Positions 37,974-42,788 of a stretch of 64,000 nt of DNA are shown here, one piece after another (within the stretch, counting starts at the first letter, position 1; every line of letters starts with the position of its first letter). The translations under genes were made by a program, and so were the position numbers. The DNA is from Kitasatospora sp. NBC_00315 (GTDB taxonomy: Bacteria; Actinomycetota; Actinomycetes; Streptomycetales; Streptomycetaceae), in the NCBI RefSeq assembly GCF_041435095.1, contig NZ_CP108025.1:3720001-3784000 (forward strand), given 5' to 3'. The notes under the pieces were generated by a model. It saw nothing but the letters and a program-made list of their open reading frames with translations, searched no databases and was not told where the DNA came from.

Positions 37974-38336
37974 ATGGCGAAGAAGCTGGTCATCAAGGTC
38001 ACGGCAGGCGCGGACGCACCGGAGCGGTGCTCGCAGGCGTTCACGGTGGCGGCGGTAGCCGTCGCGAGCGGGGTCGAGGTGTCGCTCTGGCTCACCGGCG
38101 AGTCCGCCTGGTTCGCGCTGCCGGGACGGGCGGCGGAGTTCGAACTGCCGCACGCGGCGCCGCTGCCGGACCTGCTGGAGTCGATCCTGGCGGCCGGCTC
38201 GGTCACCCTGTGCACCCAGTGCGCGGCGCGGCGCGGCATCGAGCAGAAGGACACCCTGGAGGGCGTCCGGATCGCGGGCGCCCAGGTCTTCGTCAGCGAG
38301 ATCATGGCGGACGGCGTCCAGGCGCTCGTCTACTGA
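37974..38336 (+). CDS. DsrE/DsrF-like family protein
   Basis: A 120-residue DsrE-fold protein (sulfur-relay type or uncharacterised). It starts KKLVIKVTAGADAPERCSQA, has an internal Cys pair in TLCTQCAARRGI, and ends AQVFVSEIMADGVQALVY. The Cys pair could carry persulfide, which would fit the rhodanese gene 1.3 kb away, but that is only a suggestion. Leaderless start as noted. It is convergent with the DUF3099 gene, 13 bases apart. Confidence 0.82.
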   Translation: MAKKLVIKVTAGADAPERCSQAFTVAAVAVASGVEVSLWLTGESAWFALPGRAAEFELPHAAPLPDLLESILAAGSVTLCTQCAARRGIEQKDTLEGVRIAGAQVFVSEIMADGVQALVY

Positions 38337-38349
38337 GGACGGACGACGG

Positions 38350-38667
38350 CTACCCGGGCCGTCCGTGGTCCGGGCGGTCGGGGTGGTCCGGGCGGTCGGG
38401 ACGGTCCGGGTGGTCCGGGTGGTCCCGGTCGTGGCCGGGCTCGTCCCACCGGGGGTTGTCCCAGCGCGGGTCGTTCCACCAGTCGTCCTCCGGGTCCCGC
38501 TTGTTGGCGAAGACGGCGGCGAGCGGCGGGATCACCATCGCGACCACGCACATCCCGATCGCGGCCGGCACCGACACGAACCGGACGACGCCCCAGGCCA
38601 GCACGAACAGCCCCAGGCAGACGCCCATCATGACGAAGTAGCGGACATGCCGCCGGTGTGCCTGCAC
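38350..38667 (-). CDS. DUF3099 small membrane protein
   Basis: About 105 residues with two transmembrane helices (YFVMMGVCLGLFVLAWGVV and VPAAIGMCVVAMVIPPLAAV), the DUF3099 arrangement, then a charged tail WWNDPRWDNPRWDEP and a run of HPD/RPD tripeptides at the C terminus made of near-identical DNA units. Function unknown. The GTG at 38667 is used; it has a GGAGG very close and so the start is uncertain. Confidence 0.7.
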   Translation of the reverse strand: MQAHRRHVRYFVMMGVCLGLFVLAWGVVRFVSVPAAIGMCVVAMVIPPLAAVFANKRDPEDDWWNDPRWDNPRWDEPGHDRDHPDHPDRPDRPDHPDRPDHGRPG

Positions 38668-38770
38668 CCCTCCACGGTACGGCCGGCGGCCCGCGCGGTC
38701 AGTAGCGCGGCGACACCGTCGCGTCGGTCCTGACCGCGTCGCACCGGTCCTGACGGCGCCCGGGCCGCAC

Positions 38771-38810
38771 GGTCGGCCGGTCGGCCCGTCAACCGGTCGG
38801 CCGGTCGGCC
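38771..38810. repeat. Octamer GGTCGGCC, two plus two tandem copies
   Basis: GGTCGGCC at 38771-38778 and 38779-38786, an 8-base spacer (CGTCAACC), then 38795-38802 and 38803-38810. Non-coding, between the DUF3099 start and the DUF1416 gene. Confidence 0.85.
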
Positions 38811-38838
38811 GGGACGACCTGGCCCCGCCGAAGGACGG

Positions 38839-38884
38839 CGAGGGCCCTCCCGCCCCGGCGTGAACCGGAGGAGGAGGGCCCTCG
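38839..38884 (-). terminator. Hairpin downstream of the rhodanese-DUF1416 unit
   Basis: Perfect 12-bp arms (38839-38850 with 38873-38884) with a 22-base loop, 15 bases after the DUF1416 stop codon. Confidence 0.55.
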
Positions 38885-38899
38885 GACGATGCCGCGGTC

Positions 38900-39190
38900 T
38901 CAGACCGCGATCGCGACCTCGGTGGAGGCGCCCTTGGAGGCGACCACCACGCGGTCCACGGTCGCACCGGGGATCAGCGCGCGCAGCGTCCACTTGCCCG
39001 GACGGGCGAAGAAGCGGAACTGCCCGGTGGCCGAGGTCGGGACCTCGGCGGTGAACTCGCCGCTCTCGTCGAGCAGACGGACGTAGCCGTTGACCGGCTC
39101 ACCGTCACGGGTCACCGACCCCTGGATGATCGTCTCCTTCTGCACGTCAACTCCTGCCAGGTCGGGACCGCCGGCCTTCGCACCACACAT
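38900..39190 (-). CDS. DUF1416 family protein
   Basis: A 96-residue actinobacterial protein of the DUF1416 family, almost always found next to a thiosulfate sulfurtransferase. It starts MCGAKAGGPDLAGVDVQKET and has a transthyretin/CNA-B-like beta pattern (GSVTRDGEPVNGYVRLLDES, GQFRFFARPGKWTLRAL). The N-terminal MCGA Cys is conserved in the family and may be functional. ATG 39190 has AAGGAGAG upstream. It is 82 bases downstream of the sulfurtransferase gene, same operon by position. Confidence 0.92.
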   Translation of the reverse strand: MCGAKAGGPDLAGVDVQKETIIQGSVTRDGEPVNGYVRLLDESGEFTAEVPTSATGQFRFFARPGKWTLRALIPGATVDRVVVASKGASTEVAIAV

Positions 39191-39272
39191 GTCGTTCTCT
39201 CCTTCAACAGCCCCGGTCGGGGCAATGCCTTACTGGGGGCCAGTACTCAGCTGTCGGGCTCGGTTGCCGAGC

Positions 39273-40106
39273 TCAGTTGCCGAGCTCGATCGGCACGCCG
39301 ACGAGGCTGCCGTACTCGGTCCAGGAACCGTCGTAGTTCTTGACGTTGGTCTGGCCGAGCAGCTGGTGCAGCACGAACCAGGTGAGCGCGGAGCGCTCAC
39401 CGATGCGGCAGTAGGCGATGGTGTCCTTCTCCAGGTCCACGCCCTCGGCCTGGTAGAGCGCGCGCAGCTCGTCGTCGCTCTTGAAGGTGCCGTCGTCGTT
39501 GGCGTTCTTCGCCCACGGGATGTTGGCGGCGGTCGGGACGTGGCCCGGACGCTGCGACTGCTCCTGCGGGAGGTGGGCCGGGGCGAGCAGACGGCCGGAG
39601 AACTCGTCGGGCGAGCGGACGTCGACCAGGTTCAGGGTGCCGATGGCGGCGAGCACGTCGTCGCGGAAGGCGCGGATCGAGCTGTCCTGGACCTTGGCCT
39701 TGTACTCGGTCGCGGCGCGCACCGGCACCTCGGCGACCAGGTCGCGGGAGTCGAGCTCCCACTTCTTGCGGCCGCCGTCGAGCAGGCGGGCGTCACCGTG
39801 GCCGTACAGCTTGAAGTACCAGAACGCGTACGAGGCGAACCAGTTGTTGTTGCCGCCGTAGAAGACGACGGTGTCGTCGTTGGAGATGCCCTTGGCCGAC
39901 AGGAGCTTCTCGAACGCCTCCTGGTCGACGAAGTCGCGGCGGACCGGGTCCTGGAGGTCCTTGGTCCAGTCGATCCGGACGGCGTTGCGGATGTGGTTCT
40001 TCTCGTACGCGCTGGTGTCCTCGTCGACCTCGACGATGACGACCTTCGGGTCGTCGAGGTGGGCCTGGACCCAGTCGGCGTCGACCAGGACGTCGCTGCG
40101 GCTCAT
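39273..40106 (-). CDS. Thiosulfate/3-mercaptopyruvate sulfurtransferase (rhodanese)
   Basis: A 277-residue two-domain rhodanese of the CysA2/SseA type that moves sulfane sulfur to acceptors in the cytoplasm. The inactive N domain (VVIVEVDEDTSAYEKNHIRN) is followed by the catalytic C domain with CRIGERS, the active-site Cys loop of thiosulfate sulfurtransferases. RSPDEFSGRLLAPAHLP and SWTEYGSLVGVPIELGN are typical. ATG 40106 is preferred (GGAG upstream); an ATG at 40121 is open. It is preceded by a Cys-rich leader peptide, pointing to cysteine-responsive control, and followed by DUF1416. Confidence 0.94.
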   Translation of the reverse strand: MSRSDVLVDADWVQAHLDDPKVVIVEVDEDTSAYEKNHIRNAVRIDWTKDLQDPVRRDFVDQEAFEKLLSAKGISNDDTVVFYGGNNNWFASYAFWYFKLYGHGDARLLDGGRKKWELDSRDLVAEVPVRAATEYKAKVQDSSIRAFRDDVLAAIGTLNLVDVRSPDEFSGRLLAPAHLPQEQSQRPGHVPTAANIPWAKNANDDGTFKSDDELRALYQAEGVDLEKDTIAYCRIGERSALTWFVLHQLLGQTNVKNYDGSWTEYGSLVGVPIELGN

Positions 40107-40322
40107 GGTGATGTTCTCCATCCGGGGGCGGTTTGCGGAAGGTGGTTCAGGGGTCCGGCTCGGCCTGTCCGAATTTCTGTCCGAATGATGGGACGGAAAC
40201 GGGTGGGGGCCGTACCGGATTCTGGACTGCGAAGGTTCGAGGGGCGACGGCCGGTCAGTTTGCCGGGCCAGGTCACCGGAGAGCGGGCGGCGGGCACTGG
40301 AACGCCCGAAAGAGCTGCCCGA

Positions 40323-40403
40323 TTAGCGCATTCGACACAGACAGGCGGACACGCGGCACAGGTCTACCGCCCGCCGCTTCGTGAGGTCCGTCTGTCGCTT
40401 CAT
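40323..40403 (-). CDS. Cys-rich leader peptide (26 aa) upstream of the rhodanese gene
   Basis: A 26-codon ORF (minus strand ATG at 40403, TAA at 40323) whose product begins MKRQTDLTKRR and continues AVDLCRVSACLCRMR. It matches the actinobacterial putative leader peptide pattern RR-x-VDLCR-x4-LCR found before sulfur genes. Three of the last eleven codons are Cys. The ATG lies 7 bases after a strong -10 box, so it is leaderless. By analogy with the cysteine-responsive attenuator ORFs of mycobacteria, ribosome stalling at the Cys codons when cysteinyl-tRNA is short could raise expression of the downstream rhodanese gene, 216 bases away. The assignment by pattern is strong; the mechanism is inferred. 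Confidence 0.8.
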   Translation of the reverse strand: MKRQTDLTKRRAVDLCRVSACLCRMR

Positions 40404-40410
40404 GCTGACG

Positions 40411-40440
40411 ATGCTAGGGACACCGGGCGCCCGCTGTCAT
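40411..40440 (-). promoter_or_regulatory. Leaderless promoter of the leader peptide-rhodanese unit
   Basis: Minus strand: -35 ATGACA (40435-40440), 18-base spacer, -10 TAGCAT (40411-40416), then 7 bases to the leader-peptide ATG. Near-consensus for the main sigma factor. Confidence 0.65.
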
Positions 40441-40553
40441 TAGCGTATCGAATATTGAGACGATTTGGTTCGGATCGTGAGATTTGCCGTATCCGTCGCC
40501 TTCGGGGACCGACCGGAGGGCATCCGGAGCCTCCCGAGGACCCGAAACGACAG

Positions 40554-40594
40554 CGCTCCGCGGGCTCGCGCTGGACAGCGCGTCTCGCGGAGCG
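40554..40594 (-). terminator. Hairpin downstream of the DUF2993 gene
   Basis: Nine-bp outer stem (40554-40562 with 40586-40594), a small internal loop and a 6-7 bp inner stem around 40567-40582. Confidence 0.55.
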
Positions 40595-40765
40595 GAATGA
40601 GGAGCGGAACGCGGCCCGACCGGGGCGGGTGGGCACGCGTGGAGGCGGTGCGGGAGGGAAGTTGCGGGGGCCGCGGCGCGCCGCTGGTGCGGGAGGGCAG
40701 CGCGGTCCCGGGCGGGGCGGCGGTCCGGGCGGGTGGGCCTGGCCTGGCCTGGCCGCCGAGGGGCG

Positions 40766-41476
40766 TCAGCCGTTCAGCTTGAACCTGTCGCCCCGGAAGG
40801 ACAGCCGCAGGCCGTCGGGCCCCGGCTCCGCCGTGGTCAGGGTGAGCCCGGCCGGCAGACCGCTCAGGGTGAAGGAGACCGGGTCGATCGCCTTGTCCCC
40901 CCCGTTGAGCAGGGCCGCGACGCCACTGAGCCGGAAGCCGTCCGCCGTGATCGTGTTGCCCGAGTTGTGCAGGGAGCCCTCGCCGACCGGGACGGGCCCC
41001 AGCGCGGCCTTGATCTTCCCCGGCCCGCCGTAGGAGAGCGAGAGCCGGGTGCCGCCCGGGATCGCCTTGCCGGACCCGGGCACCAGCTCGGAGGCCGGCG
41101 GCATCATCTTGGCCAGGTCCGCGTAGGTGACCAGGCCCTCGGCGGTGCCGGCGGCCACGGTGGCGCTGGTGAGACTGTCGCTCACCGCGACCCCGGAGAG
41201 CCGGGCCGTGAAGCCGTGCAGCTCCACCTGCTGCTTGCCGGTGCCCACCGTCAGGCCGTCGGCCGAGAGCCGGACGTCGTCCAGCTCCATCGACAGCGCC
41301 TGGGTGAGGAACGGAAAGCCCTCGATCGAGACCTGCGGCCGCTGGCTCAGGTAGCCGGTCTTCACCAGTTGGTCGGCGGCCTGGTCCTCGGCCACGCCGA
41401 CGGCGATCCGGTCGGCGCCCACCAGCAGCCCCGAGAGCACGACCAGACCGATCGTCGCCTTCACCCAACCACGCAT
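40766..41476 (-). CDS. DUF2993 exported/membrane-anchored protein
   Basis: A 236-residue protein of the LmeA-like DUF2993 family. One N-terminal hydrophobic segment (ATIGLVVLSGLLVGADRIAV) serves as signal or anchor, followed by the family start of a lipid-binding tubular domain (TGYLSQRPQVSIEGFPFLTQ, with the characteristic GFPFL). The mycobacterial relative LmeA takes part in phosphoinositide mannoside handling; a role in lipid transport at the envelope is plausible, not shown. It precedes the leader-peptide unit on the same strand, separated by a hairpin. Confidence 0.87.
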   Translation of the reverse strand: MRGWVKATIGLVVLSGLLVGADRIAVGVAEDQAADQLVKTGYLSQRPQVSIEGFPFLTQALSMELDDVRLSADGLTVGTGKQQVELHGFTARLSGVAVSDSLTSATVAAGTAEGLVTYADLAKMMPPASELVPGSGKAIPGGTRLSLSYGGPGKIKAALGPVPVGEGSLHNSGNTITADGFRLSGVAALLNGGDKAIDPVSFTLSGLPAGLTLTTAEPGPDGLRLSFRGDRFKLNG

Positions 41477-41582
41477 CGACGTCCCCCTCAGCGGTCACGG
41501 CCCACGGCCGTACGGTCTCCTACGACGCCCGGCCCCGGGCGATGGTTCCGCACCGGCCGGGCCACCGGGCGCCGGCCGGCGC

Positions 41583-42788
41583 TCAACCGCCGAGCAGCCG
41601 GCTGCCGATCCAGATCAGCGGCGAGGCCACCGCCAGCGGCAGCGCCACCCCCGCCGTCATGTGCACGAACCGGGACGGGAAGTCGTACGCGGCGACCCGG
41701 CGCCCGACCAGCGCGCCGACACCCGCGAGCGCTCCCAGAGCGACGGGCGCGCCGACCAGCAGGCCGAACCCGGCCGCCGCCAGCAGACCCAGCACCGGCC
41801 CGAGGGCCTTCGGGCCCGGCAGCGGAGCCGCCGCCAGCACGGTCGCCAGCGCCACCGCGCCGACCGCGGCCGGCACCCACTGCGCCAGCAGCAGCGCGCC
41901 GCACAGCACGGTCACCAGGGTCGCCGAACCGAGCACGGTCAGCGCGTAGAACCGCTCCGCCGGATCCGACGGACGGAACGTCTGGAGGACGAGCAGCAGC
42001 AGGAAGAACCCGCCCAGCGTGCCCACCACGGCGGCCGCGCCGCCGTCCCCGCTCACCAGCAGCACGGCCACGTCCGCCGTGAACCCGGCCAGCGCGGCCA
42101 GCGCGATGCCCTGCCGGGCCGGCCACATCCCGTTCAACCGGAACCAGCCGGCCGCCGTCAGCGCCTGGAGCAGCGCCACCGCGATCGCCAGCCCGAAGCT
42201 GCCGAGCGCGGCGCCGCCGGCCAGCAGCGCGGCCACCGCGGCCGTGATCAGCGCGGGCTGCAGACCCGGCTCGATGATCGGCGAACCGCTCCGGGGAGCG
42301 GCGGGCGCGGCGAACGGCGCCCCCACGGGCCCGGGCCCGGGCGCGGCGAACGGCGCGGCGGTGTACGGCTGCGCCGGGGCATACGCCGCCGACTGCTGGT
42401 ACGGCTGCGGCTGCTGGTGCTGCTGCTGGTACGGCTGGGCGTGCTGCGGCTGCGGCCATTCCTGGGGCTGCTCGTACAGAGCCTGTCCGTGCGGTGCCTG
42501 CCCGTACTGCTGCTGCGGGTACTCCTGCTGCTGTCCCTGTCCGTGCCCCTGCTGCGGGTACTCCTGCTGCGGGTACGGCGGGGACGGATACGGCTGGTCC
42601 GCGTACGCCTGACCCGCATACGGCTGCCCACCGGCCGGCTGCTGCTGGTACGGGTCCTGCGGGTGGGGAGCCTGCGGGTGGGGAGCCTGCGCGTACGGGT
42701 CGTGCGGGTACGGCGCCTGCTCGGGCAGCGGCCAGGTGGGCCGCTCCCCCGGGGTGGCGGCCGGGTAGCCGTCGCTCACGCCGCTCAC
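41583..42788 (-). CDS. Multi-pass membrane protein with Pro/Gln/Tyr-rich N-terminal tail
   Basis: About 401 residues: a cytoplasmic low-complexity tail (residues 1-165) of repeats such as PYPQQEYPQQ, HPQAPHPQDPY and QPQHAQPYQQ, then about eight or nine transmembrane helices rich in Ala, Gly, Leu and Val (ALITAAVAALLAGGAALGSF, LGGFFLLLLVLQTF, and others to the C terminus). I recognise no functional family. The GTG at 42788 overlaps the stop of the MoaD-like gene by 4 bases; a second GTG three codons later is an alternative. Coupling to a sulfur-carrier-like gene is conserved-looking but unexplained. Confidence 0.78.
   Translation of the reverse strand: MSGVSDGYPAATPGERPTWPLPEQAPYPHDPYAQAPHPQAPHPQDPYQQQPAGGQPYAGQAYADQPYPSPPYPQQEYPQQGHGQGQQQEYPQQQYGQAPHGQALYEQPQEWPQPQHAQPYQQQHQQPQPYQQSAAYAPAQPYTAAPFAAPGPGPVGAPFAAPAAPRSGSPIIEPGLQPALITAAVAALLAGGAALGSFGLAIAVALLQALTAAGWFRLNGMWPARQGIALAALAGFTADVAVLLVSGDGGAAAVVGTLGGFFLLLLVLQTFRPSDPAERFYALTVLGSATLVTVLCGALLLAQWVPAAVGAVALATVLAAAPLPGPKALGPVLGLLAAAGFGLLVGAPVALGALAGVGALVGRRVAAYDFPSRFVHMTAGVALPLAVASPLIWIGSRLLGG

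Follow-up and report, generated by a model that had tools for sequence, protein, structure and literature searches.

An invariant UGU codon in a cysteine leader peptide and a candidate attenuator of the rhodanese operon in Kitasatospora sp. NBC_00315

The rhodanese operon of Kitasatospora sp. NBC_00315, in the 64,000 nt window of its genome that was analysed, is preceded by a short ORF which is an additional member of a known family of cysteine leader peptides. Its last conserved cysteine, located 13 residues after the R of the motif RxxVDLxR, is encoded by UGU in 169 out of 169 distinct leaders (114 rhodanese-type and 55 others, duplicates removed), while the other Cys positions of the same leaders carry 186 UGC and 27 UGU codons (164 and 16 in the rhodanese type, 22 and 11 in the others). 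Sequence comparison shows conservation of the leader ORF and of a promoter of the leaderless type in front of it, of the motif RxxVDLxR-UGU, and of a complementarity between the leader and a block preceding the rhodanese Shine-Dalgarno (SD) sequence. We propose that the leader acts as a cysteine-responsive, ribosome-mediated attenuator and that its target is most likely the translation of the rhodanese-DUF1416 operon, a reading for and against which we see the scales about level.

Organization of the rhodanese locus

An earlier note on this DNA had described a 26-codon ORF at 40323-40403 (minus strand), 216 nt upstream of the rhodanese ATG (40106), and the sequence confirms it. Its claim of a near-consensus promoter (ATGACA, 18 nt, TAGCAT, then 7 nt to the leader ATG) also stands, and a scan of 901 nt (39900-40800; shuffled sequences gave a mean of 0.1) turned up no other sigma-70-like site. 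The "Cys-rich stretch" of the peptide is better put as one key UGU with optional Cys codons. The locus contains the following features, all on the minus strand:

40435..40440, minus: -35 hexamer ATGACA (from the sequence; TGACA at the same offset in 69/70 genus genomes, shifted by one base in the remaining genome)
40411..40416, minus: -10 hexamer TAGCAT, 7 nt 5' of the leader ATG (at -13..-8 in 70/70 genus genomes, as is the ATG; TANNNT family-wide; promoter scan)
40323..40403, minus: leader peptide ORF, 26 codons, MKRQTDLTKRRAVDLCRVSACLCRMR (NF042933.1, 45.7 bits; NF042934.1, 34.8 bits; 70/70 genus genomes)
40353..40377, minus: predicted leader hairpin, GCGGCGGG (40377-40370) with CCUGUGCCGC (40362-40353), alternative partner for the switch element (RNAalifold, prediction only)
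40366..40372, minus: GGGCGGU, proposed switch element, codons 11-13 (complementary to the pre-SD block)
40356..40358, minus: Cys16 codon UGC, at the VDLC position (UGC in 125/127 family leaders and 71/79 named loci)
40335..40337, minus: Cys23 codon UGU, the proposed sensor, located 13 residues past Arg10 (UGU in all distinct leaders and in 79/79 named loci)
40126..40132, minus: pre-SD block ACCGCCC, with which the switch element is proposed to pair (70/70 genus genomes; ACUGCCC in most other Streptomycetaceae read)
40116..40123, minus: Shine-Dalgarno region of the rhodanese gene, GGAUGGAG (sequence and alignment)
39273..40106, minus: rhodanese-family sulfurtransferase, 277 aa, first regulated gene in the proposed scheme (Pfam Rhodanese in two stretches; orthologue in 70/70 genus genomes)
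38900..39190, minus: DUF1416 gene, 96 aa, probably second in the operon (Pfam PF07210, 131 bits; co-transcription inferred from spacing)

A simple pattern scan of 39900-40800 found no terminator-like sites, hence none between the leader and the rhodanese gene, and a scan of 38000-42000 with the Rfam covariance models gave four sub-threshold matches, none of which exceeds its gathering score or falls within the leader region. Several other elements were observed in the neighbourhood. A DsrE/DsrF-like gene, perhaps also related to sulfur, lies near the operon on the opposite strand (37974-38336, plus). Operator-like repeats TCTCA..TATTCGA adjoin the leader -35 hexamer on its upstream side (40442-40460 and 40469-40482, minus), and a further one, GTCcCA..ATtCGGACAG...TTCGGAC, lies in the middle of the spacer (40166-40194, minus; found by pattern in 52/70 genus genomes). 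A related regulator-like pattern, TCTCRNNATYCGRA, has six matches in the genome and none for the reversed control, one of the matches being located about 80 nt from the leader of a cysteine synthase gene (loci L079, L110). A transcription factor shared by these repeats is possible.

With the -10 hexamer only 7 nt before the leader ATG, the transcript would be leaderless, as the earlier note had proposed, and the conservation of the promoter in genus and family argues for it. TANNNT was found 5-9 nt (actually 6-8 nt) before an in-frame ATG in 127/127 family leaders against 4.0 expected from shuffles. Outside the family the same test gave 37/39 against 2.2 expected, with GTG starts in 21, and the signal was weaker in the family-search set (31/67 against 5.0 expected).

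Conservation and family membership of the leader

The leader peptide matches the NCBIfam model NF042933.1 (Ms5788A family Cys-rich leader peptide) with 45.7 bits, just above the curated cutoff of 45, and NF042934.1 (cis_reg_atten, putative leader peptide) with 34.8 bits, above the cutoff of 27. The match to the former confirms that it belongs to the leader-peptide pattern of actinobacterial sulfur genes, to which it had earlier been assigned. In the genus, a rhodanese orthologue is found in 70/70 genomes, each with a 26-codon leader upstream, which corresponds to the cysA2-type context of NF042933. The genus consensus is MKRQxxLTKRRAVDxCRVxxCLCRxR (70 genomes) with the three Cys codons kept in all of them; the ORF has a fixed length, and the spacer that separates it from the rhodanese gene measures 185 to 277 nt. 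At the family level a peptide search recovered the leader in 199/200 genomes and in 17/17 genera. Among class-level upstream regions, 68/109 contain the leader motif within 620 nt; in the other 41 it is absent from this interval, and in at least one of these (G101) a leader lies farther upstream. A leader was sought at locus L383 and none was seen, and the leader peptide, searched against plasmid records, returned one weak match. Judged by this conservation, the leader ORF is real, far beyond chance, and by analogy with its relatives the rhodanese operon would be under cysteine-responsive control. The link to mycobacterial cysteine attenuators drawn in the earlier note finds support in the literature and in poly-Cys leaders that carry the same motif (L213, L215), the mycobacteria-like leader L215 being located about 620 nt upstream of a rhodanese gene. 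In several other families (L207, L198, L172 and others) we also observed a further ORF just 5' of the rhodanese gene that ends with FCLGCE-like residues and whose product may resemble a DUF4395-type protein.

Further Cys leaders occur elsewhere in this genome. Scanning it with NF042934 yielded 24 matches at E<=10, nine of them at E<=0.002 and six above the cutoff. We counted 13 of the 24 as leaders, the rhodanese leader and twelve more, four of them recognized by their motif and weak by the model. L121 and L122, which also have TGT at the last Cys, were excluded as doubtful, and the remaining nine have no Cys at this position and look chance-like. For each of the twelve leaders the first long coding-like ORF behind it was picked heuristically and then scanned. 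These genes encode a nitrite/sulfite reductase, a cysteine synthase (passing the cysKM model), an NADPH-dependent FMN reductase, two SsuA-like sulfonate-binding proteins (below the model cutoff), a cysteine dioxygenase-like protein, a sulfatase, an acyl-CoA-dehydrogenase-like protein with sub-cutoff matches to FadE16 and SfnB, a 2OG-Fe(II) oxygenase, an AAA ATPase-domain protein and an Opp/Nik-type permease; the ORF behind L126 had no NCBIfam match. About half of these genes are plainly related to sulfur. The cysteine dioxygenase-like gene, preceded by a UGU-type Cys leader (L115), is an odd target for a cysteine-starvation switch.

The invariant UGU codon

All subsets show the same codon choice at the last Cys. 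TGT was read there in 70/70 genus genomes (with TGC at Cys16, likewise in 70/70), in 33/33 family leaders from other genera, in 23/23 parsed class loci, in 27/27 parsed further leaders, in 13/13 leaders of the organism's own genome and in 66/66 readable class-level leaders (two of 68 being cut and unreadable). The 79 named loci, which partly represent the same species as the other sets, all have UGU. Besides the organism's own leaders, 59 newly fetched loci were read among about 140 search rows; our first pattern failed for 6/29 and 3/30 of these family-search loci, and all nine proved to have UGU on reading (three of them within the 169, six outside). At least four of the 55 "other" leaders (L217, L222, L223, L236) also precede a rhodanese gene. 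Even in the mycobacteria-like poly-Cys leaders L213 and L215, with their run of six Cys, the conserved position 13 is TGT. Synonymous codons of the peptide motif vary: within the rhodanese type, the Val of VDL is encoded by GTC (43), GTA (42), GTG (19) and GTT (10), and the first Arg by CGG (89), CGA (12), CGC (6), CGT (4) and AGG (3).

Related genomes are not independent in these counts. A single inherited accident nevertheless seems unlikely as the origin of the UGU, since it is shared by different leaders within one genome and by many families, and the sampling did not select for codon choice, because the searches used peptides or protein models. General codon use was rejected as the reason, TGT being the minority codon with 13 of 115 Cys codons in the window genes (heuristic selection). 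We also rejected an influence of the following bases, since positions 6 (UGC) and 13 (UGU) both mostly precede a codon starting with C. RNA pairing may contribute to the choice in the rhodanese type, where predictions mostly pair the third base of the UGU (0.84 and 0.78) and a U-to-C swap would cost about 0.6 kcal/mol of duplex energy with an upstream segment. It may also do so outside the family, where the predicted mean destabilization of the leader by U-to-C is 0.52, as compared to -0.30 at other U positions. As a general reason, pairing was rejected: in the 67-leader family-search set the pairing value is -5.8 with U, -6.8 with C and -8.1 with G, so that C or G would pair better, and a change from U to C is not destabilizing (-0.42).

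In enteric leaders, codon choice has been explained by competing isoacceptor tRNAs (Elf and Ehrenberg, in the part of PMC1183508 available to us). A search of the genome for tRNA genes gave 70 matches, six of which, all of 82-88 nt (Leu/Ser-like size), were left untyped. Both tRNA-Cys genes found have the anticodon GCA, which decodes both Cys codons via standard wobble. Isoacceptor competition presupposes tRNAs that differ in the codons they read, and with the tRNA-Cys found it therefore cannot explain the UGU. The two genes (L418:1387-1460 and L452:99-172) have clearly different bodies around this same anticodon. We infer that the UGU, decoded by wobble, is itself the useful property. In our proposal, the sensing Cys of actinobacterial Cys leaders must be UGU and never UGC whatever gene follows, and the ribosome would sense cysteine through slow wobble decoding of this codon, with help from the VDL of the nascent peptide inside the tunnel, and possibly also through the sulfur-dependent modification state of tRNA-Cys; we would stake no more on this than on its opposite. 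An invariant UGU beside mostly UGC codons, with the tRNAs found sharing one anticodon, offers a clean natural experiment on a synonymous codon as sensor, and a UGU at position 13 could help to recognize genuine Cys leaders in the genomes of actinobacteria and thereby their sulfur regulon. The accessible parts of the literature cited here, a coverage outside which Canestrari 2020 lies, contain no statement of a UGU rule or of the Streptomycetaceae switch element described below.

Complementarity between the leader and the pre-SD block

In Streptomycetaceae, codons 11-13 of the leader contain the sequence GGGCRGU, which can pair with a block ACYGCCC just 5' of the rhodanese SD. GGGCGGU occurs with ACCGCCC in 70/70 genomes of the genus, and most other genera combine GGGCAGU with ACUGCCC. 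An anchoring pattern that already demands YGCCC before the SD fitted 122 of the 127 family leaders; all seven positions pair in 118 of these and six in the other four. Of the five without an anchor, two carry ACCGCCC followed by a different base and three have no block. The block is present in 67 of the 79 named loci (full pairing in 63, six positions in 4) and missing from 12. The third base of the Ala12 codon covaries with the block in the anchored rows (G-C 68, A-U 44, G-U 10, A-C 0), the G-U intermediate also occurring in g117, g118 and g125, and Ala12 is GCA or GCG in 127/127 family leaders as against 41% of the Ala codons of the window genes (heuristic selection). This covariation amounts essentially to one clean double change plus G-U intermediates. 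Conservation of GGGCRGU is not strictly tied to the block, since most loci without a block keep it (9/12 named loci and 3/3 loci of the family set).

When the changes are placed on a tree of the 79 loci, four branches carry a change of the block and five a change of leader codons 10-11, with two branches in common. The mean for random placements is 0.17 and only 43 of 5000 reach two; codon 10 lies outside the helix. We regard this coincidence as moderate support for a switch, not as proof. In the second of the alignment groups used for folding, the best complement in 17/24 leaders is an overlapping one, GCGGCGG(G) with a CCGCCGC stretch slightly farther upstream. Outside the family, 17 leaders near their gene share no partner, each having only complements of its own, 5-9 nt long and differing in location, and the switch is therefore not the general mechanism. 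The earlier note had suggested looking for conserved competing hairpins in 40107-40322; no terminator-like site exists there and the spacer is mostly variable in the alignment, but the pre-SD block (40132-40126) provides a plausible partner.

Folding predictions

Foldings were predicted for four alignment groups (70, 24, 13 and 20 sequences) with RNAalifold, and separately for 82 single sequences, which included every one of the 57 non-genus leaders and a draw of 25 from the 70 genus leaders. Ribosome footprints were assumed: masking codons 17-27 represents a ribosome waiting at UGU23, masking codons 10-20 one waiting at UGC16. In the unmasked alignments the leader is predicted to form its own hairpins. 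With codons 17-27 masked, pairing of GGGCRGU to the pre-SD block is predicted at 0.98, 0.13 (the second group), 0.98 and 0.91 in the four groups, and the unpaired fraction of the SD rises from.27 to.45, from.26 to.49, from.41 to.80 and from.47 to.61. The mask on codons 10-20 gives.27,.17,.52 and.41, with no consistent rise.

In the single sequences, SD accessibility increases by more than 0.05 in 43/82 and decreases in 6 with codons 17-27 masked, as compared to 14 up and 11 down, and 16 up and 17 down, with two control masks, 10 up and 19 down (mean -0.051) with codons 10-20 masked, and 14 up and 20 down (mean -0.031) with codons 8-27 masked. The locus studied here, folded singly, shows no gain at the SD under the UGU23 mask (0.254 to 0.234), which counts against the switch. 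These models predict that a ribosome waiting at UGU23, and not at UGC16, would free the GGGCRGU/ACYGCCC pairing and open the SD.

Proposed mechanism and alternatives

In the proposed attenuator, transcription would begin at the leader AUG and ribosomes would translate the leader at once. When Cys-tRNA is ample, the ribosome would pass, the leader RNA would fold on itself and the rhodanese SD would be partly paired. When it is scarce, the ribosome would wait at the UGU of codon 23, covering approximately codons 17-27 and leaving codons 9-14 free, and the freed GGGCRGU would shift to ACYGCCC just 5' of the SD and render the latter more accessible. The UGC of codon 16 would be the place where the ribosome should not wait, since a stall there would cover the switch element; an unexpected finding under this idea is that Cys16 is UGU in 8/79 named loci. 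The pause probably also has a nascent-peptide component, contributed by RxxVDLxR, which lies 6-13 residues ahead of the sensing codon.

That last component could also be the main one, with RxxVDLxR in the exit tunnel and the key Cys codon in the A site setting the pause and the RNA acting in a locus-specific manner. We consider this tentatively, as a possibility that falls short of an even chance; it is compatible with the attenuator and would fit the fixed peptide motif and spacing with varying synonymous codons, as well as the many other leaders with a single Cys, although the distances in the tunnel were reasoned by analogy with known arrest peptides. A different question is the sign of the switch. 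The helix between leader and pre-SD block ends a few bases from the SD and might block it, so that a stalled or queued leader ribosome would disrupt the helix and turn the gene on. Conserved pairing alone is silent on the sign, and such a scheme is given for translation attenuation systems in a paper of 2026, which also states that translation attenuation has been shown for several cysteine genes of M. smegmatis (part of PMC13236596 available). We nevertheless judge this opposite sign unlikely: in the predictions, masking codons 10-20 or 8-27 slightly lowers the mean SD accessibility, and free codons 9-14 raise it.

Control might alternatively be exerted on transcription, by Rho-dependent premature termination in the untranslated spacer, set by the position of the ribosome on the leader. 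Rho was proposed in 2005 for actinobacterial cys leaders, no conserved terminator hairpin being found (PMC1262725, in part), and the absence of a terminator-like site from 39900-40800 would agree with it. By itself, however, Rho does not account for the complementarity between leader and pre-SD block, and we find it distinctly improbable as the explanation. That the ORF arose by chance, for which we found no supporting point, or encodes a functional small protein acting in trans, which would be compatible with the sequence, is hardly credible in view of its position and length, conserved in 70/70 genomes, its match to a family model and the constraint at the codon level.

Comparison with known systems

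The kind of leader described here was already known; the mechanism proposed for it is a refinement, still unproven, and the main interest lies in the codon rule. In the portions available of the respective papers, leader ORFs with Cys runs were predicted before mycobacterial cys operons in 2005, with no clear mechanism (PMC1262725), and the leaderless small ORF of cysA2/Msmeg_5788 was described in 2015, together with ribosome occupancy (PMC4633059). Canestrari 2020 (doi 10.1111/mmi.14498) is cited for cysteine-responsive attenuation in the parts seen of PMC9094748, PMC9031893 and PMC13236596. The reannotation of Streptomyces lividans lists eight leader peptides, none of them termed cysteine-dependent in the part of PMC8079986 available.

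Enteric trp, his and leu attenuators likewise use a hungry leader codon to control RNA folding, and codon choice matters there too (part of PMC1183508); our locus differs from them in having no terminator-like site, and in that both tRNA-Cys found have the anticodon GCA. In the uORFC-8-2 cysS leader of Rhodobacterales, Cys codons also precede a Cys gene, but there, as far as the available part of PMC8632094 describes it, the Cys codons are in tandem, UGC dominates and an intrinsic terminator is present, unlike here.

Among actinobacterial leaders, the cis_reg_atten family (NF042934) has the core RxxVDLxR...C in common with the rhodanese leader. The latter represents a rhodanese subtype; the remaining leaders of the genome stand in front of different genes, and a single Cys is frequent in them. 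The rhodanese leader resembles the Ms5788A or mycobacterial cysA2 leader (NF042933) in peptide motif, leaderless-type start and type of downstream gene, but has three spaced Cys codons where the mycobacteria-like L213 and L215 carry the Cys run RRAVDLCRVAGCCCCCCSC, and its possible pre-SD switch element was seen only in Streptomycetaceae. The mycobacterial polycysteine short ORFs (Canestrari 2020, as known from the passages that cite it) are leaderless, mediate a cysteine-responsive attenuation of their operons and contain a contiguous Cys run, which the present leader lacks. By analogy with these, the Kitasatospora leader, while not polycysteine in the narrow sense, would respond to cysteine too and may work alike.
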